A stretch of 64,000 bases of DNA, from contig JAHBBC010000011.1 in the NCBI GenBank assembly GCA_019915015.1, forward strand, positions 1,116,001-1,180,000. Direction: 5' to 3'. The stretch comes from Auriscalpium vulgare (taxonomy: Eukaryota > Basidiomycota > Agaricomycetes > Russulales > Auriscalpiaceae). Every line of letters begins with the position of its first letter. The stretch's first letter is position 1. Below the pieces are notes generated by a model that saw nothing but the letters and a program-made list of their open reading frames with translations, did not search any database and was not told where the DNA came from. Positions 10,345 through 27,018 of the stretch are shown one piece after another. Made by a program: the position numbers and the translations under genes.

Positions 10345-12481
10345 ATGGCTTCTTTTCTCTCCACCGCCCTCCTCGCCCTCGTCCTCACCACCTCCGCTTT
10401 TGCCTCTCCCACACCACGTACGTGCCGGACCCAACCCTCCGATCCCGCGTTTCCACGTCCTTCTCAATGGGCTGCACTCAATGAGTCCGTCGATGGCCGG
10501 CTACTCAATGTCGTGCCGACCGCGAAGTTCTGCATGGAGCGAGGTGGATGCTCAGATGTTCTGTGGAATAGCAGTGTGTGGAGGGCGAGCGTTCCGGAGC
10601 GATGAATTCGGTGCGTCGAACATAGTCTCTGAGTCGCATCGAGGCTAATTTCATCTCGGGCTTCCGGTGCTTAGAATAATTGGGAGCAGGTTCGTTCACC
10701 TTTGAGAGGTCTCAGCCGTCATGTTGACGCCGCGAAAGGACTATGCAGGCAACGGGTCTCTCTGCATCTTCAATTCCACCACATGCGGTCAAAGCAATGT
10801 CCCGCTCTTCGCCATCAACGCAACTTCGCCCGCTCATCTCCAGGTAATCCAGCTTCATTCGCCATAATACGTGCATCTGACGCGCTACACTAGGCAGGCG
10901 TTCGCTTCGCGACGACGCACAATCTCCGCCTGGCCATCAAAGCTTCCGGACATGACTTCCTTGGGCGCTCAACAGCACGAGACTCACTCCTCCTCTGGAC
11001 CCAATATTTTCGGAATATCACCTTCTCCGACGACGCGGAAACAGTGACTGTCGGCAGCGGCGTCGGTCTGAAGGATCTGTACGCCGCTGCAAAGGCCAGA
11101 GGAAAGATATTTGTGGGCGGGACAGCTTGGACGGTCGCGGCGGCCGGTGGGTATGCGCAGGGCGGCGGGCACTCGGCGTTCTCGCCTGTGCTAGGTCTCG
11201 CTGTGGACAATGCTGTCGGTGAGTTGTGAGCAACCGGCTATACACACGGCGTTGGGCTGACGTGAGAGACAGAGTACAACATCGTACTCGCAAATGGTGC
11301 CTTTGTTGCCGCCAATGCCACCTCGCATCCTGACCGTGAGCACAATCCAAATTGTACTCATATTCGCGAACTGACATACACAGTCTTCTGGGCCCTCCGC
11401 GGCGGCGGCGCGGGCAGCTGGGGCGTCCTCACGTCCGTGACCTACCGCACACACCCCACCTTCCCCGCAACGCTGCACCAAGCAACTTTCGTCGCGCCAT
11501 CCTCCCTCCTCGCTGGACGCCTCCTTGCTGCACACGCGCGCCACATCCCCACGCTCGACGCTCTACGTGCAGGGCAGTACTTCTACCTGCGCGGTGCGCC
11601 CGGCAACGGCAGCAGCACGCTCAGCCTCACGACGATCGCACCGCACGTAACGAGCGGTGCGGTACTCGCGGGCCACATGGAGCCGCTGCTGGATGCGGCC
11701 CGCGCGATGGGCGTGGCCGTGCAAGGCGAGCTGACACTCACCGCGCTCGCGAACGACATCGTGCCGAACGCGGAGTGGGCGATCGAGGCGATCGTCGGGG
11801 GGCTGTCGACGGCGGACGCGCCGCGCCGCGTTGTTCCGTTCCAAGACGACATCGCGGGCCATAATGTGATCATGGGCTCACGCCTCATTCCAGAGAAGGT
11901 GTATACGAATGGCGGCGTGGACGCGTTCGCGGGCACGTTTACGCGGATTCTGGACATGGGCGTGCCTGGGTGAGTTGATGGAGCACTTCCGCTGTCTGTG
12001 GTGGCATGCGCTGAGGGTGACGCGGGGCAGGATCCATGGGCACTTAGTCGCGGGCGGGAAGGTCGCGGAGAACGCGCACATCAACAGCTCCGTGACACCC
12101 AAATGGCGCACTGCAAAGACACACGTCAGTCTCCCGTCTTCCACATCGCCAAGTACTGCACTTACCTCTATGGTATACGAGCAGATTCTCATCAGCCGCT
12201 CGTGGCCTGACACAACTGCGCCTGCCCTGGTCGAGCAGCTCCGGTATAACTTCACGCACACTGCGATGCCGCTCCTCGTCGGTCTCACGGGCGAGCACGA
12301 CAGCGGTGCGTACTCGAGTGAGGCGGATGTGCGCGAGCCGAACTTCCAGACGACGTTCTACGGGCCACACTACACGATACTGTCGGCGGTGAAGGCGCGG
12401 TATGACCCGAGCGATCTGTTCATCGTTGGCGCGGGTGTCGGCAGCGAACGTTGGGACGTATCTGGGATGTGTCGCGTATGA
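10345..12481 (+). CDS. secreted FAD-linked oxidoreductase (BBE/VAO family)
   Basis: The product starts with a clear signal peptide (MASFLSTALLALVLTTSAFA) and continues with a PCMH-type FAD-binding domain: LRLAIKASGHDFLGRST, where the His is the expected covalent FAD ligand, then TVGSGVGLKDLYAAAKARGK and AAAGGYAQGGGHSAFSPVLG. LFWALRGGGAGSWGVLTSVT follows the FAD domain, and the C-terminus ends YDPSDLFIVGAGVGSERWD, the berberine-bridge-enzyme tail. The Cys that gives bicovalent FAD in berberine bridge enzymes is not seen, so a single His link is likely. Such enzymes oxidise alcohols, sugars or secondary metabolites outside the cell and release hydrogen peroxide. At least six short introns. It converges on the repeat-peptide gene (13318-13856), which makes a role in modifying that peptide conceivable but unproven. 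Confidence 0.85.
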
Positions 12482-13317: not shown

Positions 13318-13856
13318 CTAGCCCTCGAGAGTGTCGCGACGCCAGTTGTCGGGAAGAGCGAGGTCGGGGCTGACCTCGCCGCGACGCCAGTTGTCAGGCA
13401 GAGCGAGGTCGGGGCTGATTTCGCCGCGACGCCAGTTGTCGGGAAGAGCGAGGTCGGGGGTGACCTCACCGCGACGCCAGTTGTCGGGAAGAGCGAGGTC
13501 GGGGGTGACCTCGCCGCGACGCCAGTTGTCGGGAAGAGCGAGGTCGGGGGTGACCTCACCGCGACGCCAGTTGTCGGGAAGAGCAAGGTCGGGGGTGACC
13601 TCGCCGCGACGCCAGTTGTCGGGAAGAGCGAGGTCGGGGCTGACCTCACCGCGACGCCAGTTGTCGGGAAGAGCGAGGTCGGGGCTCTCCTCGCGGAGGC
13701 TACAGCGTGCAGAAGGTGACAAGTTAGCAAAGCGCGTACGGAGGCAACAACCTGAATAACTCACGTCAGACCAGCCGGAGCGGCGACGGGCGCAGCAAAT
13801 GCGGGAGCGAACGCGGCGGCAAGCGCAAGCGTCACGAATGTAACGGTCAAATGCAT
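13318..13856 (-). CDS. secreted Kex2-processed repeat peptide precursor (KEP-like)
   Basis: Two exons, 13765-13856 and 13318-13699, joined across a 65-nt intron (13700-13764, GTGAGT..TAG), give a 157-residue protein. It opens with a hydrophobic signal peptide (MHLTVTFVTLALAAAFAPAF) that probably ends at an Ala-x-Ala site, then a short Ala/Pro pro-segment. The remainder is eight copies of a 15-residue unit, GEVTPDLALPDNWRR in its main form: one ESP start, two GEVSP, four GEVTP and one GEISP. Every unit ends with Trp-Arg-Arg, the dibasic site cut by the Golgi protease Kex2. The protein stops five residues after the last Arg-Arg (DTLEG). The expected products are eight near-identical 11-13-residue acidic peptides ending in Asn-Trp. 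This design is that of fungal KEPs, which include ribosomal peptide precursors and secreted repetitive proteins. No Cys or Tyr is in the core, so Trp, Asn or Asp would be the likely sites of any modification. Confidence 0.8.
13321..13690 (-). repeat. 45-bp coding tandem repeat, 8 copies
   Basis: Eight units of 45 bp encode the repeats of the precursor gene. Units differ at a few bases only, mostly silent or changing Val-Ser, Val-Thr and Ile-Ser before the Pro. The length is an exact multiple of three and all units keep the frame and the Arg-Arg pair, as expected if the array expands or contracts by unequal crossing over while the peptide is kept by selection. Confidence 0.9.
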
Positions 13857-13937: not shown

Positions 13938-13944
13938 ATTTATA
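13938..13944 (-). promoter_or_regulatory. TATA box of the repeat-peptide gene
   Basis: TATAAAT on the minus strand, about 82 bp upstream of the ATG at 13856. A clear TATA box is more usual for highly expressed or regulated fungal genes, such as those for small secreted proteins, than for housekeeping genes. Not verified by transcript data. Confidence 0.45.
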
Positions 13945-14390: not shown

Positions 14391-14592
14391 AATAGGGGAG
14401 CTCAGAGTAGACCGTTTTCGTTTCCGTTTCGTTTTCAAACGCCTTTCGTTTTCGATTCGGCCCGCGGCATAAGTGACCCGATGTGTGACAATCGTGTGAC
14501 TTTAGGTGACGCTCGCGTTGTGCGGCGTCTTCGTGTCTCACACACTCATTCCCTCGCGATACCTCCTTAATCTACACTCTCCTACTCTCTTA

Positions 14593-16189
14593 ATGCCCCG
14601 GAAACGCGGCCGCTCGGACTCCGACCAGCCTGAGACAGCTCCGGGCAAGAAATCCCGTGAGGAGAACATCAGCTGGGGCACAAATAAGAAGCCAAATGAG
14701 CTGCTCCTGCAGCTCATCACGGAGCTCGAACAGCCGCAAAATCGCAAGGTTATGTTTGGTAACAAGCGTGGTGAGGTATGCAGGTGGCCCACGCATCATC
14801 TGGGCTTTGTTACTGACATCTTTCCAGAAGAAAAGCGGAGAAAGTAAGGTCGCAGCGGGTCAGCGGCTTGCTCGCATCCTCTGGAAGGATGCTCCGGACT
14901 CGGATTTCGTCAGTCTGGGAGCAAAGGTGCTCGGGAAAATAAATCAGTATGTCCATACCCTTATTGGATGCCTCATACGTGCTCACAGGCTTGTGTAGGC
15001 TACGCATCACCTATCACTCCAAGGTTCGGCGCATTAAGTGCACGGGTGGAGGTGTCCTCACTGGGAATGAGGCCATCGTCGACACAGGTGATGCCGACGA
15101 TGGTCCAGATGAGTATTTGGTCTGCTACATAGGGCCAGATGGCCCATCCGAGGATACCGATGCACGCCACAAGAATATCTGGCGTAAGTTCATTTTGTGA
15201 TCTCCGATGAGCACGCTGGAGGCTAACACATCCTGTGCAGAGGAGATCGAGGCCGAGTTCGCTGTCTTCCCCCGAATTCACGCGATCCTTGCCACCCGCC
15301 CAAATGAAAACCCGATCATCATCACGACTGGGGTTGGTCCGGACGGTCACCGCACAGTGCACTATCAGCCTCCCGACGACGCGCCACCTGTGCGGCAACC
15401 GCGCGAAGAGGACATAGACCCCGTCCTACGCGTTCACGATGGCCCGGCGCCTCTCGCGCAAGACTCTTCTGCGACCGCACCCGGCCCGGGATCGCCACCG
15501 CAGACGCCACACACTCCCAAAGAGAACCGCGTGCCGCCCTCGTCGCAAGCAAGTGCGAAGAAGACTCCCGCACACCTGTCGGAAGAGAAGCTGGAGAGCT
15601 TGAAGGGTCGCTTCAAGCCCACGTCACGCACCGGCATTCAAGACATACTGAAGGAGTCCATCGAGTAAGTAATACTAGTTGTTGGTAATGCACGTGGACT
15701 AATTCATGTGGCAGGCGTAGCTTTGCGGTGTCAAAGGAAGAGAACATCCGCAAAGCTGTCGACAGGCTGCGCGATGACATGAATAGTCTTCGCCAAGACG
15801 CTCGCGATCGCCACGACCGCCTCTTTCGTGAGCTGCAGATTGGCTTGTGGACGAACGATGAGTATCGCCGCAAGTCGGAAGCACTTGACGATGACCTTCA
15901 GCTGCAGCTTCAAGATCTCCGTGAAAATATATCGCGCCTTCAGAATCCTCCTCTGGTTGTCGCCGCCGCTACGCCCGCTCGTTCCATCTCACGCACGGGC
16001 TCTATGTCAACCGCTGCATCGACGCCTTCATCTCTGCCGCGCGCATCGACACCTCCGGATGATGAGCCCGAGAGCGAGATGACAAGCCAGAGAGAAAATA
16101 GTCCTCCCTGGGATGAGAGCCAGTTGGACAGAGATCTTGGACGAGGATCATCTGTGGTTCCAGACGAGTTGGAGCGAGGCTTAGTCTGA
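14593..16189 (+). CDS. Harbinger ORF1, DNA-binding accessory protein (copy 1)
   Basis: Five exons (14593-14775, 14828-14946, 14999-15183, 15241-15664, 15715-16189) splice with GT..AG introns into 461 residues. The start is basic (MPRKRGRSDSDQPETAPGKK). The segment NELLLQLITELEQPQNRKVM looks like the first helices of the Myb/SANT-like or trihelix fold seen in ORF1 proteins of PIF/Harbinger elements in plants and animals; that match is inference. A Pro/Ser-rich middle follows, then a predicted coiled coil around VSKEENIRKAVDRLRDDMNS and an acidic tail. By analogy it would bind the element ends and bring the transposase to the nucleus. Convergent with the transposase. Copies 1 and 2 are identical here as far as I could compare. 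Confidence 0.75.
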
Positions 16190-16304
16190 TCATTTTGCTT
16201 TTGTCCTTTCTAACTGCAGCCTCTCATTTAATGCTACACAGTCCTTTCTTCTTTCTGATTATATCTCTCTTACTCTTTACAATCTCAGATTTAATCTTGT
16301 TCAT

Positions 16305-17628
16305 TTATACAAGTCCTGCTCGTTGAGCGGCTACTATTTCTGCCACAAGGCCACGTCTCCTAGCCTCGCAATCATCATCCTCTGTGATATCATCATCTAT
16401 AGGATCATCTGGCTCCCCCCTATCGTCCTCTTCCTGAGCACGTGAGTGCCAAGTCGCAAAGCTTGTCCCACTCGCCCATCCTTCGATGTCGAGCACTGCG
16501 TTGTGCAAGATGATGCAACATGAAATCCACCGACACGCTCGTATATGGTCCCGATTGTAACGGATATTGAGCCGTAAGCCACGAAGGGATTGCCATCGGC
16601 CCTTGAGTGCACCCATGGTGTGTTCAGAGCGAACGCGTAGGCGAGCTACGTGTTTGTCGAATAAGGCATTTGAGCGGTCTAACGACGCTGGTTTCTTGTG
16701 AACTGGGATGGTCCGCGAGCTGACAGGGTACGCAGAGTCACCCCATGCAAACTCGTCACCTCTGAAGAACCAGTCGGTATGCTTGACAGCTGCAGTATGC
16801 TCAAATGCAGATGCATCATGAGCAGAACCGGTCATGCCAAGCGAATAGTCAACGATTCGTAGATTCGACGGTGTATTGCCAATCTGTGTACAGATATGTC
16901 AGTCAGGAGCTATTAGAAGATATCCAGCATACCTGGACGTTGAACCCATAGTTGCACTTCCTTGTGTAGTACGCGTCACCGTCGAGGCCGGGGCGACTGT
17001 ACAGGACAACAATTGTCCCGTCGTACATCACCCATCCCTCCCTCCAGGTGGATCCCGTGAAACCAAGCTGCTCATCAATCCACCTTTTCTCGACCTCTTT
17101 CTCCTCCTCTGTTAGCGGCCGTACAAACATCCCATGCAAGGACATCAGCGCCTCCTGACATCTCTCCGTGTATAGCTCCACAGCGCCCTCTGAACAGCCC
17201 GCTGCACGGCTGATATCCTCGAGAGATGCGCCATTGCCATAGCGACCCATACGGTACAGGGTCACCGCTAATTGCGTTCGGATATCCTCCTGCGGGGTGT
17301 TCGAGTTGTTCTGGAATACGGGATGACCCTCGATGAGGCCAAGGATAGTGTCGAAGACGTGGGGAGAGACACGGAGCATGTTGATAAAGCGGTGGTGATG
17401 GGCAGGATCCTGTGCATACTCCCATGCAAGCTGGAGATTGCCGGCTTTAACGACGGGAGGACGGGGGTTGATGTAGCGGGAGGATAGGATGGTGTGAAGG
17501 ATTGAGCTATCGCGTTGGAGCTGCTCCATCATAGCTGTGGCTGAAGATGGAGGCATGAGTGCCATCTGGATAGCCATATATGTGATGTATGCGTCGATAA
17601 TCTCATCGTGGTAGGTAGCACGGGCCAT
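16305..17628 (-). CDS. PIF/Harbinger DDE transposase, HARBI1-like (copy 1)
   Basis: Two exons (16933-17628 and 16305-16883) join across a 49-nt intron into 424 residues. The N-terminal half has a helix-turn-helix-like stretch (NGASLEDISRAAGCSEGAVE). The DDE_Tnp_4 catalytic domain shows the three acidic residues: Asp in VMYDGTIVVLYSRPG, Asp in FAWGDSAYPV and Glu in RSEHTMGALKGRW. HARBI1-type nucleases cut the element ends and insert with a 3-bp target duplication. Conserved CIILHNAVLD near the end is typical. Length is normal for the family and nothing is disrupted. Confidence 0.92.
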
Positions 17629-17983
17629 GGCTGGTGGAAGAGCTCGAAAGCAATGGCGGCGGTGTCGCGCAGCGGCGTAGATTGAGTGACATTATGTAAT
17701 ATCACGCCGGGGCGCCGAATCGAAAACGAAAGGCGTTTGAAAACGAAACGGAAACGAAAACGGTCTACTCTGAGCTCCCCTAATAGGGGAGCTCAGAGTA
17801 GACCGTTTTCGTTTCCGTTTCGTTTTCAAACGCCTTTCGTTTTCGATTCGGCCCGCGGCATAAGTGACCCGATGTGTGACAATCGTGTGACTTTAGGTGA
17901 CGCTCGCGTTGTGCGGCGTCTTCGTGTCTCACACACTCATTCCCTCGCGATACCTCCTTAATCTACACTCTCCTACTCTCTTA

Positions 17984-19580
17984 ATGCCCCGGAAACGCGG
18001 CCGCTCGGACTCCGACCAGCCTGAGACAGCTCCGGGCAAGAAATCCCGTGAGGAGAACATCAGCTGGGGCACAAATAAGAAGCCAAATGAGCTGCTCCTG
18101 CAGCTCATCACGGAGCTCGAACAGCCGCAAAATCGCAAGGTTATGTTTGGTAACAAGCGTGGTGAGGTATGCAGGTGGCCCACGCATCATCTGGGCTTTG
18201 TTACTGACATCTTTCCAGAAGAAAAGCGGAGAAAGTAAGGTCGCAGCGGGTCAGCGGCTTGCTCGCATCCTCTGGAAGGATGCTCCGGACTCGGATTTCG
18301 TCAGTCTGGGAGCAAAGGTGCTCGGGAAAATAAATCAGTATGTCCATACCCTTATTGGATGCCTCATACGTGCTCACAGGCTTGTGTAGGCTACGCATCA
18401 CCTATCACTCCAAGGTTCGGCGCATTAAGTGCACGGGTGGAGGTGTCCTCACTGGGAATGAGGCCATCGTCGACACAGGTGATGCCGACGATGGTCCAGA
18501 TGAGTATTTGGTCTGCTACATAGGGCCAGATGGCCCATCCGAGGATACCGATGCACGCCACAAGAATATCTGGCGTAAGTTCATTTTGTGATCTCCGATG
18601 AGCACGCTGGAGGCTAACACATCCTGTGCAGAGGAGATCGAGGCCGAGTTCGCTGTCTTCCCCCGAATTCACGCGATCCTTGCCACCCGCCCAAATGAAA
18701 ACCCGATCATCATCACGACTGGGGTTGGTCCGGACGGTCACCGCACAGTGCACTATCAGCCTCCCGACGACGCGCCACCTGTGCGGCAACCGCGCGAAGA
18801 GGACATAGACCCCGTCCTACGCGTTCACGATGGCCCGGCGCCTCTCGCGCAAGACTCTTCTGCGACCGCACCCGGCCCGGGATCGCCACCGCAGACGCCA
18901 CACACTCCCAAAGAGAACCGCGTGCCGCCCTCGTCGCAAGCAAGTGCGAAGAAGACTCCCGCACACCTGTCGGAAGAGAAGCTGGAGAGCTTGAAGGGTC
19001 GCTTCAAGCCCACGTCACGCACCGGCATTCAAGACATACTGAAGGAGTCCATCGAGTAAGTAATACTAGTTGTTGGTAATGCACGTGGACTAATTCATGT
19101 GGCAGGCGTAGCTTTGCGGTGTCAAAGGAAGAGAACATCCGCAAAGCTGTCGACAGGCTGCGCGATGACATGAATAGTCTTCGCCAAGACGCTCGCGATC
19201 GCCACGACCGCCTCTTTCGTGAGCTGCAGATTGGCTTGTGGACGAACGATGAGTATCGCCGCAAGTCGGAAGCACTTGACGATGACCTTCAGCTGCAGCT
19301 TCAAGATCTCCGTGAAAATATATCGCGCCTTCAGAATCCTCCTCTGGTTGTCGCCGCCGCTACGCCCGCTCGTTCCATCTCACGCACGGGCTCTATGTCA
19401 ACCGCTGCATCGACGCCTTCATCTCTGCCGCGCGCATCGACACCTCCGGATGATGAGCCCGAGAGCGAGATGACAAGCCAGAGAGAAAATAGTCCTCCCT
19501 GGGATGAGAGCCAGTTGGACAGAGATCTTGGACGAGGATCATCTGTGGTTCCAGACGAGTTGGAGCGAGGCTTAGTCTGA
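17984..19580 (+). CDS. Harbinger ORF1 (copy 2)
   Basis: Same five-exon structure as copy 1, shifted by 3391 bp, with the same 461-residue product and no break. Confidence 0.75.
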
Positions 19581-19695
19581 TCATTTTGCTTTTGTCCTTT
19601 CTAACTGCAGCCTCTCATTTAATGCTACACAGTCCTTTCTTCTTTCTGATTATATCTCTCTTACTCTTTACAATCTCAGATTTAATCTTGTTCAT

Positions 19696-21019
19696 TTATA
19701 CAAGTCCTGCTCGTTGAGCGGCTACTATTTCTGCCACAAGGCCACGTCTCCTAGCCTCGCAATCATCATCCTCTGTGATATCATCATCTATAGGATCATC
19801 TGGCTCCCCCCTATCGTCCTCTTCCTGAGCACGTGAGTGCCAAGTCGCAAAGCTTGTCCCACTCGCCCATCCTTCGATGTCGAGCACTGCGTTGTGCAAG
19901 ATGATGCAACATGAAATCCACCGACACGCTCGTATATGGTCCCGATTGTAACGGATATTGAGCCGTAAGCCACGAAGGGATTGCCATCGGCCCTTGAGTG
20001 CACCCATGGTGTGTTCAGAGCGAACGCGTAGGCGAGCTACGTGTTTGTCGAATAAGGCATTTGAGCGGTCTAACGACGCTGGTTTCTTGTGAACTGGGAT
20101 GGTCCGCGAGCTGACAGGGTACGCAGAGTCACCCCATGCAAACTCGTCACCTCTGAAGAACCAGTCGGTATGCTTGACAGCTGCAGTATGCTCAAATGCA
20201 GATGCATCATGAGCAGAACCGGTCATGCCAAGCGAATAGTCAACGATTCGTAGATTCGACGGTGTATTGCCAATCTGTGTACAGATATGTCAGTCAGGAG
20301 CTATTAGAAGATATCCAGCATACCTGGACGTTGAACCCATAGTTGCACTTCCTTGTGTAGTACGCGTCACCGTCGAGGCCGGGGCGACTGTACAGGACAA
20401 CAATTGTCCCGTCGTACATCACCCATCCCTCCCTCCAGGTGGATCCCGTGAAACCAAGCTGCTCATCAATCCACCTTTTCTCGACCTCTTTCTCCTCCTC
20501 TGTTAGCGGCCGTACAAACATCCCATGCAAGGACATCAGCGCCTCCTGACATCTCTCCGTGTATAGCTCCACAGCGCCCTCTGAACAGCCCGCTGCACGG
20601 CTGATATCCTCGAGAGATGCGCCATTGCCATAGCGACCCATACGGTACAGGGTCACCGCTAATTGCGTTCGGATATCCTCCTGCGGGGTGTTCGAGTTGT
20701 TCTGGAATACGGGATGACCCTCGATGAGGCCAAGGATAGTGTCGAAGACGTGGGGAGAGACACGGAGCATGTTGATAAAGCGGTGGTGATGGGCAGGATC
20801 CTGTGCATACTCCCATGCAAGCTGGAGATTGCCGGCTTTAACGACGGGAGGACGGGGGTTGATGTAGCGGGAGGATAGGATGGTGTGAAGGATTGAGCTA
20901 TCGCGTTGGAGCTGCTCCATCATAGCTGTGGCTGAAGATGGAGGCATGAGTGCCATCTGGATAGCCATATATGTGATGTATGCGTCGATAATCTCATCGT
21001 GGTAGGTAGCACGGGCCAT
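19696..21019 (-). CDS. PIF/Harbinger transposase (copy 2)
   Basis: Same two-exon gene as in copy 1, shifted by 3391 bp. All three catalytic acidic residues are kept and the frame is open. Confidence 0.92.
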
Positions 21020-21374
21020 GGCTGGTGGAAGAGCTCGAAAGCAATGGCGGCGGTGTCGCGCAGCGGCGTAGATTGAGTGACATTATGTAATATCACGCCG
21101 GGGCGCCGAATCGAAAACGAAAGGCGTTTGAAAACGAAACGGAAACGAAAACGGTCTACTCTGAGCTCCCCTAATAGGGGAGCTCAGAGTAGACCGTTTT
21201 CGTTTCCGTTTCGTTTTCAAACGCCTTTCGTTTTCGATTCGGCCCGCGGCATAAGTGACCCGATGTGTGACAATCGTGTGACTTTAGGTGACGCTCGCGT
21301 TGTGCGGCGTCTTCGTGTCTCACACACTCATTCCCTCGCGATACCTCCTTAATCTACACTCTCCTACTCTCTTA

Positions 21375-22970
21375 ATGCCCCGAAACGCGGCCGCTCGGAC
21401 TCCGACCAGCCTGAGACAGCTCCGGGCAAGAAATCCCGTGAGGAGAACATCAGCTGGGGCACAAATAAGAAGCCAAATGAGCTGCTCCTGCAGCTCATCA
21501 CGGAGCTCGAACAGCCGCAAAATCGCAAGGTTATGTTTGGTAACAAGCGTGGTGAGGTATGCAGGTGGCCCACGCATCATCTGGGCTTTGTTACTGACAT
21601 CTTTCCAGAAGAAAAGCGGAGAAAGTAAGGTCGCAGCGGGTCAGCGGCTTGCTCGCATCCTCTGGAAGGATGCTCCGGACTCGGATTTCGTCAGTCTGGG
21701 AGCAAAGGTGCTCGGGAAAATAAATCAGTATGTCCATACCCTTATTGGATGCCTCATACGTGCTCACAGGCTTGTGTAGGCTACGCATCACCTATCACTC
21801 CAAGGTTCGGCGCATTAAGTGCACGGGTGGAGGTGTCCTCACTGGGAATGAGGCCATCGTCGACACAGGTGATGCCGACGATGGTCCAGATGAGTATTTG
21901 GTCTGCTACATAGGGCCAGATGGCCCATCCGAGGATACCGATGCACGCCACAAGAATATCTGGCGTAAGTTCATTTTGTGATCTCCGATGAGCACGCTGG
22001 AGGCTAACACATCCTGTGCAGAGGAGATCGAGGCCGAGTTCGCTGTCTTCCCCCGAATTCACGCGATCCTTGCCACCCGCCCAAATGAAAACCCGATCAT
22101 CATCACGACTGGGGTTGGTCCGGACGGTCACCGCACAGTGCACTATCAGCCTCCCGACGACGCGCCACCTGTGCGGCAACCGCGCGAAGAGGACATAGAC
22201 CCCGTCCTACGCGTTCACGATGGCCCGGCGCCTCTCGCGCAAGACTCTTCTGCGACCGCACCCGGCCCGGGATCGCCACCGCAGACGCCACACACTCCCA
22301 AAGAGAACCGCGTGCCGCCCTCGTCGCAAGCAAGTGCGAAGAAGACTCCCGCACACCTGTCGGAAGAGAAGCTGGAGAGCTTGAAGGGTCGCTTCAAGCC
22401 CACGTCACGCACCGGCATTCAAGACATACTGAAGGAGTCCATCGAGTAAGTAATACTAGTTGTTGGTAATGCACGTGGACTAATTCATGTGGCAGGCGTA
22501 GCTTTGCGGTGTCAAAGGAAGAGAACATCCGCAAAGCTGTCGACAGGCTGCGCGATGACATGAATAGTCTTCGCCAAGACGCTCGCGATCGCCACGACCG
22601 CCTCTTTCGTGAGCTGCAGATTGGCTTGTGGACGAACGATGAGTATCGCCGCAAGTCGGAAGCACTTGACGATGACCTTCAGCTGCAGCTTCAAGATCTC
22701 CGTGAAAATATATCGCGCCTTCAGAATCCTCCTCTGGTTGTCGCCGCCGCTACGCCCGCTCGTTCCATCTCACGCACGGGCTCTATGTCAACCGCTGCAT
22801 CGACGCCTTCATCTCTGCCGCGCGCATCGACACCTCCGGATGATGAGCCCGAGAGCGAGATGACAAGCCAGAGAGAAAATAGTCCTCCCTGGGATGAGAG
22901 CCAGTTGGACAGAGATCTTGGACGAGGATCATCTGTGGTTCCAGACGAGTTGGAGCGAGGCTTAGTCTGA
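21375..22970 (+). pseudogene. Harbinger ORF1 with 1-bp deletion (copy 3)
   Basis: Identical to the ORF1 of copies 1 and 2 except for loss of one G at about 21382, which turns MPRKRG into MPRNAA and puts exon 1 out of frame. The shifted frame runs on through the first intron, so no full product is expected unless this base is a sequencing error. Confidence 0.8.
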
Positions 22971-23085
22971 TCATTTTGCTTTTGTCCTTTCTAACTGCAG
23001 CCTCTCATTTAATGCTACACAGTCCTTTCTTCTTTCTGATTATATCTCTCTTACTCTTTACAATCTCAGATTTAATCTTGTTCAT

Positions 23086-24409
23086 TTATACAAGTCCTGC
23101 TCGTTGAGCGGCTACTATTTCTGCCACAAGGCCACGTCTCCTAGCCTCGCAATCATCATCCTCTGTGATATCATCATCTATAGGATCATCTGGCTCCCCC
23201 CTATCGTCCTCTTCCTGAGCACGTGAGTGCCAAGTCGCAAAGCTTGTCCCACTCGCCCATCCTTCGATGTCGAGCACTGCGTTGTGCAAGATGATGCAAC
23301 ATGAAATCCACCGACACGCTCGTATATGGTCCCGATTGTAACGGATATTGAGCCGTAAGCCACGAAGGGATTGCCATCGGCCCTTGAGTGCACCCATGGT
23401 GTGTTCAGAGCGAACGCGTAGGCGAGCTACGTGTTTGTCGAATAAGGCATTTGAGCGGTCTAACGACGCTGGTTTCTTGTGAACTGGGATGGTCCGCGAG
23501 CTGACAGGGTACGCAGAGTCACCCCATGCAAACTCGTCACCTCTGAAGAACCAGTCGGTATGCTTGACAGCTGCAGTATGCTCAAATGCAGATGCATCAT
23601 GAGCAGAACCGGTCATGCCAAGCGAATAGTCAACGATTCGTAGATTCGACGGTGTATTGCCAATCTGTGTACAGATATGTCAGTCAGGAGCTATTAGAAG
23701 ATATCCAGCATACCTGGACGTTGAACCCATAGTTGCACTTCCTTGTGTAGTACGCGTCACCGTCGAGGCCGGGGCGACTGTACAGGACAACAATTGTCCC
23801 GTCGTACATCACCCATCCCTCCCTCCAGGTGGATCCCGTGAAACCAAGCTGCTCATCAATCCACCTTTTCTCGACCTCTTTCTCCTCCTCTGTTAGCGGC
23901 CGTACAAACATCCCATGCAAGGACATCAGCGCCTCCTGACATCTCTCCGTGTATAGCTCCACAGCGCCCTCTGAACAGCCCGCTGCACGGCTGATATCCT
24001 CGAGAGATGCGCCATTGCCATAGCGACCCATACGGTACAGGGTCACCGCTAATTGCGTTCGGATATCCTCCTGCGGGGTGTTCGAGTTGTTCTGGAATAC
24101 GGGATGACCCTCGATGAGGCCAAGGATAGTGTCGAAGACGTGGGGAGAGACACGGAGCATGTTGATAAAGCGGTGGTGATGGGCAGGATCCTGTGCATAC
24201 TCCCATGCAAGCTGGAGATTGCCGGCTTTAACGACGGGAGGACGGGGGTTGATGTAGCGGGAGGATAGGATGGTGTGAAGGATTGAGCTATCGCGTTGGA
24301 GCTGCTCCATCATAGCTGTGGCTGAAGATGGAGGCATGAGTGCCATCTGGATAGCCATATATGTGATGTATGCGTCGATAATCTCATCGTGGTAGGTAGC
24401 ACGGGCCAT
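23086..24409 (-). CDS. PIF/Harbinger transposase (copy 3)
   Basis: Same two-exon 424-residue gene as in copies 1 and 2, intact, with the three catalytic acidic residues. It could act in trans on all three elements. Confidence 0.92.
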
Positions 24410-24565
24410 GGCTGGTGGAAGAGCTCGAAAGCAATGGCGGCGGTGTCGCGCAGCGGCGTAGATTGAGTGACATTATGTAATATCACGCCGGGGCGCCGAA
24501 TCGAAAACGAAAGGCGTTTGAAAACGAAACGGAAACGAAAACGGTCTACTCTGAGCTCCCCTAAT

Positions 24566-26649: not shown

Positions 26650-27018
26650 ATGCAATCCTTGTTCAACAATCAAGAACATGATGATTCAAAGCAATTACAA
26701 TGCCCTTTACTACATATAAGCTACACTGCTAAACACGACTACTAGTACTGTAACGCGTGCCCGAGCACTTTACCCGACGGGGCTGTGACTGAATTAGGCA
26801 GGAGGCGGCGAGGGGTCAGCCGGGGTCCTGACGATTTCTGCCAGTCGCTCTTCGAGCCCTTGCGGTTGTCTTAGTCGGTTGTCTCGGGCCGCTTGGGCGA
26901 GAACGAGCCGGCGTGGGAAGCTCTTCGAGCCCTTGCGGTTGTCTTAGTCGGTTGTCTCGGGCCGCTTGGGCGAGAACGAGCCGGCGTGGGAAGGAGTCTG
27001 ATCCAGTACTGGTACTGG
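26650..27018. repeat. right inverted arm with 73-bp tandem duplication
   Basis: Reverse complement of the left arm. A 73-bp unit (26847-26919, GCTCTTCGAGCCCTTGCGGT at its start) is repeated directly at 26920-26992, and the tip carries 11 extra bases relative to the left arm. Confidence 0.85.

Follow-up and report, generated by a model that had tools for sequence, protein, structure and literature searches.

A probable KEX2-type repeat-protein gene of Auriscalpium vulgare and a leader exon common to at least 15 loci of its genome

Main finding

A small repeat gene in a 64-kb stretch of Auriscalpium vulgare DNA (hereafter the window; C11:1116001-1180000 of the 51.6-Mb genome) is very probably a KEX2-processed repeat protein (KEP) gene, and its leader exon recurs elsewhere in the same genome. 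What is new here is that at least 15 loci share this exon, each with a donor in phase 2 at an equivalent position, and that different peptides are encoded behind it; we do not claim that such a set is absent from print. The leader-exon set around the window gene, more than the single gene, is the main interest. Fungi commonly make KEP peptides, for most of which no role is known, and the combination of a common leader, cores changed by replacements and a constant cleavage frame offers a testable hint at recognition or defence, while the set also supplies exact masses to look for.

The first-pass annotation of the window had proposed a candidate new system. The gene instead fits the published KEP class, since these proteins and Trp-ended mushroom peptides released from them are already described (PMC6339444, PMC7329392, PMC9769878).

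The repeat gene and its reading frame

At 13856-13318 the minus strand carries the features that the first-pass annotation had described: a putative signal-peptide exon, a 65-nt frame-restoring intron and eight Arg-Arg-ended 15-residue units. Removal of the intron gives a precursor of 157 aa, and the unspliced reading meets an immediate in-frame stop. Its features are as follows.

13939..13944, minus strand: TATA-like element, its start 88 nt ahead of the ATG (position -85 in three sister genes)
13765..13856, minus strand: exon 1, 92 nt, ending in phase 2; putative signal peptide MHLTVTFVTLALAAAFAPAFA followed by APVAAPAGL; a similar exon at 15 genome loci
13700..13764, minus strand: intron, 65 nt, phase 2, GTGAGT...TGTAG, with a branch-like GCTAAC at 13723-13728
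13318..13699, minus strand: exon 2, with pro-segment LTLR, eight WRR-ended units, tail DTLEG and stop
13335..13694, minus strand: tandem array of eight 45-nt units, the commonest being GEVTPDLALPDNWRR

The signal peptide, called by eye, has a hydrophobic core and a cleavage site between AFA and AP. Tandem Repeats Finder reported the array at 13335-13694 with a period of 45 nt, 8.0 copies, 93% matches and a score of 622. Arg-Arg occurs eight times in the precursor, always as WRR and at a spacing of 15 residues, and Trp stands directly before the Kex2 site in all eight units. Units 2-8 read GEV(S/T) or GEIS, then PDLALPDNWRR, and have RR at both edges, whereas unit 1 (REESPDLALPDNWRR) has a single Arg upstream. 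Seven 15-aa units therefore lie between RR sites, where the KEP criterion asks for three or more tandem repeats, each 8 to 100 aa long, between KR, KK, RK or RR (PMC7329392). In a simple scan of unspliced frames across the 64-kb window, no ORF other than the array and its antisense had at least three similar units separated by dibasic sites. The array itself matched four Pfam families, among them Glyco_hydro_95_C and 1-cysPrx_C; these matches were set aside as repeat artefacts, because no stretch passes alone.

The splice model was chosen for its canonical donor and the sole (C/T)AG acceptor 42-110 nt behind that donor; when models were ranked purely by open length, the first was a 189-aa model in another frame with the donor GTCTGA. 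The opposite strand also carries an open repeat frame (13322-13759, plus), with RR in each unit and no Met in the open frame. When differences among 18 units of three sister genes were pooled, 20 of 38 were silent in the sense frame (53%, against 23.5% expected under random changes) and 23 of 38 in the antisense frame, while the other four frames gave 5-8 of 38, including 8 and 7 for the other two forward frames. The antisense frame scores this highly because its wobble positions coincide with those of the sense frame, and the silent-change test alone therefore does not separate the two strands. What decides for the sense frame is that the sister genes have the leader, the splice sites, the TATA box and the 3' flank in common, and that the antisense frame is Met-less, a point that covers the open frame itself and leaves room for an upstream exon on that strand.

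Predicted processing and product

The leader exon would direct the precursor into the secretory pathway, where a Golgi Kex2-type protease is expected to cut after each Arg-Arg and a Kex1-type carboxypeptidase to trim both Arg residues. The likely products, judged from the encoded protein, are linear acidic 13-mers such as GEVTPDLALPDNW. Seven are predicted, namely four copies of GEVTPDLALPDNW, two of GEVSPDLALPDNW and one of GEISPDLALPDNW, together with one N-terminally extended copy from unit 1 and the tail DTLEG. Of the eight copies of about 13 residues first annotated, seven are thus predicted as RR-bounded 13-mers, while unit 1, which is preceded by a single Arg, would be N-terminally extended. 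The broader proposal of a Kex2-type repeat precursor that would give an acidic Trp-ended peptide is well supported, by the eight WRR units and by the retention of WRR in the intact sister genes. The peptide may act outside the cell, as a signal or in contacts with other organisms, and basic growth is the less likely setting for it.

The genome contains a P-domain exon like that of Kex2 (C4:1861105, E 1.7e-15, with one TGA inside the match). The same search also matched one of 14 control genomes (Methanosarcina), and the exon is therefore no proof of Kex2. Relatives in other genomes were sought and not found: when the window protein was compared with a protein collection that may include few fungi, none of 456 candidates reached E <= 0.001, and for the sister protein encoded at C33 none of the best 7993 word-sharing candidates that were scored reached E <= 1.

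Trp-Arg-Arg sister genes

A full-length search of the genome, repeated with the leader DNA alone, found three paralogues of the window gene.

C15:1309906: C15 sister, 8 units, PDIIPAGNWRR
C8:621958: C8 sister, 7 units, TDIDVAGPWRR
C14:1115759: C14a sister, two units, broken reading frame

All three have a 61-nt intron at the same place. With gap columns excluded, DNA identity among the Trp-Arg-Arg sisters was 81-88% in exon 1, 75-90% in the intron (75-85% against the window copy), 76-81% in the 100-nt 5' flank and 57-81% in the first 120 nt of the 3' flank. A unit query of the genome gave 12 matches, all at these four loci, and no further array. With a DNA pattern for the WRR-G/S-E junction we obtained 85 matches (49 + 36), against 21 + 16 for a backward control, and by eye those spaced about 45 nt apart were confined to C8, C11 and C15, with a single match at C14a.

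The C14a copy is a probable pseudogene of this branch, and its broken frame and two remaining units lend something to the idea that the window gene is itself non-working, either because its repeat expanded in a copy already decaying or because the open frame yields no product. We consider this highly improbable, because the window gene has an intact frame, splice sites and a TATA box, and because its branch shows the excess of silent differences given above, an excess that one antisense frame equals.

Splitting the intact arrays of the window, C15 and C8 genes at WRR gave 8, 8 and 7 pieces. A lost cleavage site would show as a double-length piece and none is present, which means that every unit keeps WRR in the three intact arrays. 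The cores between these sites differ (PDLALPDNW, PDIIPAGNW and TDIDVAGPW) while WRR is constant. The first-pass annotation had named homologues that lose the dibasic sites and keep the rest of the repeat as evidence against processing; the opposite is seen within this genome, which favors the processing model. It had also taken the uniformity of LALPDNW between units as a sign of selection, a view that does not hold, since this stretch varies between sister genes while WRR stays; identity between units is a poor argument for selection, because homogenisation within an array is expected.

The same pattern bears on a rival reading, a secreted protein of the surface or wall that works uncut or in long pieces and in which Arg-Arg is incidental or only partly cut. 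Pieces of a repeat protein of this kind, Rep1 of Ustilago maydis, attach to hyphae, and a putative signal peptide, a highly regular repeat and the long units (about 40 residues and more) at some other leader loci would suit such a role. It nevertheless seems unlikely, given that no unit of the three intact arrays has lost WRR although the cores differ from gene to gene, and we retain processing at Arg-Arg as the preferred reading.

Substitution in cores and leaders

To compare units between sister genes we used 18 of the 23 units in gapless form, omitting each array's opening unit and two units of 14 residues. Changes within arrays comprised 15 silent and 11 replacement. Fixed differences gave silent to replacement ratios of 0:9 between the window and C8 genes (Fisher p 0.004), 0:7 between C15 and C8 (p 0.009) and 1:5 between window and C15 (p 0.17). 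Two of the three gene pairs thus depart from the within-array pattern at p < 0.01, although the pairs share branches and are not independent, and the units of an array are not a population sample.

The gapless unit dN/dS was 0.282/0.097 for window-C15 (0.175/0.107 when two codon gaps were included), 0.467/0.102 for window-C8 and 0.362/0.228 for C15-C8. Leader dN was below core dN in all three pairs (0.203 vs 0.282, 0.098 vs 0.467 and 0.174 vs 0.362). Strict constraint is not seen in the leader either: for exon 1, the three pairs with C15 gave 0.203/0.210, 0.174/0.166 and 0.158/0.152, which is near 1, and the remaining three gave 0.098/0.236, 0.101/0.170 and 0.140/0.218. The mostly replacement character of the fixed core changes is a hint, drawn from a small sample of sequences and short of proof, that the Trp-Arg-Arg cores may be diversifying.

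A leader exon at fifteen loci

Searches with exon-1 queries of about 30 residues and with a composite query placed the leader exon at a minimum of 15 genome loci, a lower bound as only first-look candidates were scored. Two exon-1 queries gave 14 matches each (E up to 10), and all 28 fell within the 15 loci. Besides the Trp-Arg-Arg branch these are as follows.

C11:996883, C11:900718, C14:1206893, C14:321348, C33:325438, C4:1629953, C5:1461356: other leader loci
C20: four leader loci within 41 kb

Weak matches of the composite query (E up to 1) at C1:2783632, C26:254775 (query 9-63) and C8:100559 (query 41-77) were rejected, as neither a leader start nor dibasic repeats were seen there. A GT donor (GTGAG, GTAAG or GTCAG) in phase 2 was found at the same place, after 80-104 nt, in all 15 loci, where donors were chosen by mutual agreement; ranking by length alone gives a phase-2 donor in 11 of 15.

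Behind the leader, the number of KR/RR sites per locus was 8, 8, 7, 3 (the frame-broken C14a), 7, 2, 2, 8, 5, 5, 5, 4, 6, 10 and 1, so that 11 of the 15 loci have at least four and the remaining four have fewer, as counted in models with the single leader intron. By eye, the cargo consists of Gln-led long units at C33, C14c, C4, C14b and partly C11b, and of units of the type FEDFLDKFFKEHPN at C5, C20c and C20d, while the C11c locus is short, with one dibasic site. Some of the loci without WRR have units of about 40 residues and more. C20a and C20b each carry one unit resembling each cargo type (Gln-led long and FEDFLDKFFKEHPN-like); these two loci (C20:501290 and C20:506141), 4.85 kb apart, differ at one residue over 138 modelled residues.

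Leader protein identity between the Trp-Arg-Arg branch and the other loci was 61% over 23 ungapped residues (40 pairs), in a comparison of 14 of the 15 loci from which the duplicate C20b was omitted. At identical leader residues, codons were shared between this branch and the rest at 0.389, against 0.381 expected from usage. Because codon sharing is close to expectation, codons cannot tell ancient descent from convergence of the leader; common descent is favored because intron place and phase are shared.

Within the Trp-Arg-Arg branch, the cargo core has changed, whereas the place of the intron and the cleavage sites are kept. A wider reading, which we put forward tentatively and regard as rather unlikely, is a cassette system in which a shared secretion-leader exon and an intron of fixed place and phase are joined to unlike Kex2-cut cargoes, the Trp-Arg-Arg cores being under diversifying selection. 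Two observations weaken it: leader replacement rates are about equal to silent rates in three of the six sister pairs, and at four of the 15 loci the dibasic sites number three or fewer. If true, it would point to an arms race or a recognition role for KEP peptides.

Gene surroundings

Neighbors in the window were assigned from Pfam searches of 20 chosen ORFs, and the list is partial.

10894-12481, plus strand: exons of a BBE-type FAD-dependent oxidase gene (Pfam), tail to tail with the repeat gene and downstream of it
16305-16898, 19696-20289 and 23086-23679, minus strand: equal-length transposase-element ORFs (Pfam run on the first copy)

The FAD_binding_4 and BBE exons converge on the repeat gene, and Trp and Asn are residues open to modification, so that the released core might be imagined as a modified RiPP, cyclised or oxidised before secretion, for example by this neighboring oxidase. 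We judge this quite improbable. The mature part of the precursor is free of Tyr (and of Cys); no BBE match (E <= 0.01) was found in the flanks of about 3 kb of the three sister genes; and C11, C8 and C14 have no match to UstYa (DUF3328, PF11807), a fungal family, the nearest match on C15 lying about 1.14 Mb from the sister gene. A cyclised RiPP cluster in particular was rejected, as the contig gave no UstYa match and the mature part is Tyr-free. Unmodified linear peptides thus remain the preferred product.

Elsewhere in the genome there were 14 UstYa matches (15 candidates scored), on C1, C4, C9, C15, C18 and C25, and none in the 14 control genomes. Those that are grouped (C1:714-783 kb, C15:168-170 kb, C25:347-348 kb and C4:1882-1883 kb) are candidate dikaritin-type loci. 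Eight 10-kb regions around these groups and on C9 gave no repeat precursor in a simple scan, which reads unspliced frames, asks for similar unit ends and can miss some.

On the other side of the repeat gene, 14391-24500 holds three tandem copies, with a period of about 3391 nt, of a DDE_Tnp_4 transposase element, which we take to be Harbinger-like. The three copies are 100% identical over one 300-nt block, and for another block the identities are 100% and 78%. Farther along the window, a stretch of 300 nt or more recurs as a direct repeat after 842 nt (25489 and 26331), and 26847-26993 is a perfect 73-nt tandem duplication.

Comparison with known systems

The first-pass annotation had set the gene apart from dikaritins and mating pheromones, and the comparison sustains this. 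Dikaritins (ustiloxin, phomopsin) have a similar precursor architecture and use a core Tyr for cyclisation, whereas the window gene has no Tyr in its mature part and no UstYa match on its contig. Ascomycete alpha-pheromone precursors are likewise repeat precursors with Kex2 sites, but in place of their STE13 signature (X-Ala or X-Pro after the Kex2 site) the window gene has Gly-Glu after all seven RR sites that precede a unit. The basidiomycete a-type mating pheromone ends in a CaaX motif, and the window protein, ending in DTLEG, does not. Conotoxin and MSDIN-type families combine a shared leader with a variable released peptide in unrelated organisms or by unrelated processing, and the leader-exon set resembles them in design only; the tentative cassette reading is likened to venom-peptide families for its diversifying cores.

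The closest likeness is to KEPs, a class whose definition comes from Le Marquer 2019 (PMC6339444); the survey of Umemura 2020 detected 7878 of them in 1345 of 1461 strains (PMC7329392). They have a signal peptide, putative in the window gene, and like it have tandem units parted by dibasic Kex2 sites; lineage-specific expansions are seen in both, and one Peniophora strain has 20 of a single type (PMC7329392). A shared leader exon with unlike cargo was not found in the main-text parts of PMC6339444 and PMC7329392; the words "intron" and "paralog" are absent from the main text of both, and "exon" from that of PMC7329392.

Among Basidiomycota a conserved XSDW repeat has been described (PMC6339444), and Vogt 2022 reports, by mass spectrometry, the Trp-ended KEP peptides SGTGEASAADW of shiitake (L. 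edodes), SGVAADW of oyster mushrooms (Pleurotus) and GPPAPSW of Coprinopsis cinerea, with QYKAPSW found upon expression in Pichia (PMC9769878). The window gene lacks the STE13 dipeptides that the precursors of Pleurotus and the KEP 490115 of C. cinerea contain, and six KEP knockouts in one mushroom had no phenotype in pure culture (PMC9769878). No core similarity to these peptides is obvious by eye. The published Trp-ended agaricomycete peptides are linear (PMC9769878) and, like those predicted for the window gene, have a short core whose last residue before the Kex2 site is Trp; acidity is a further likeness to the cores of L. edodes and Pleurotus.
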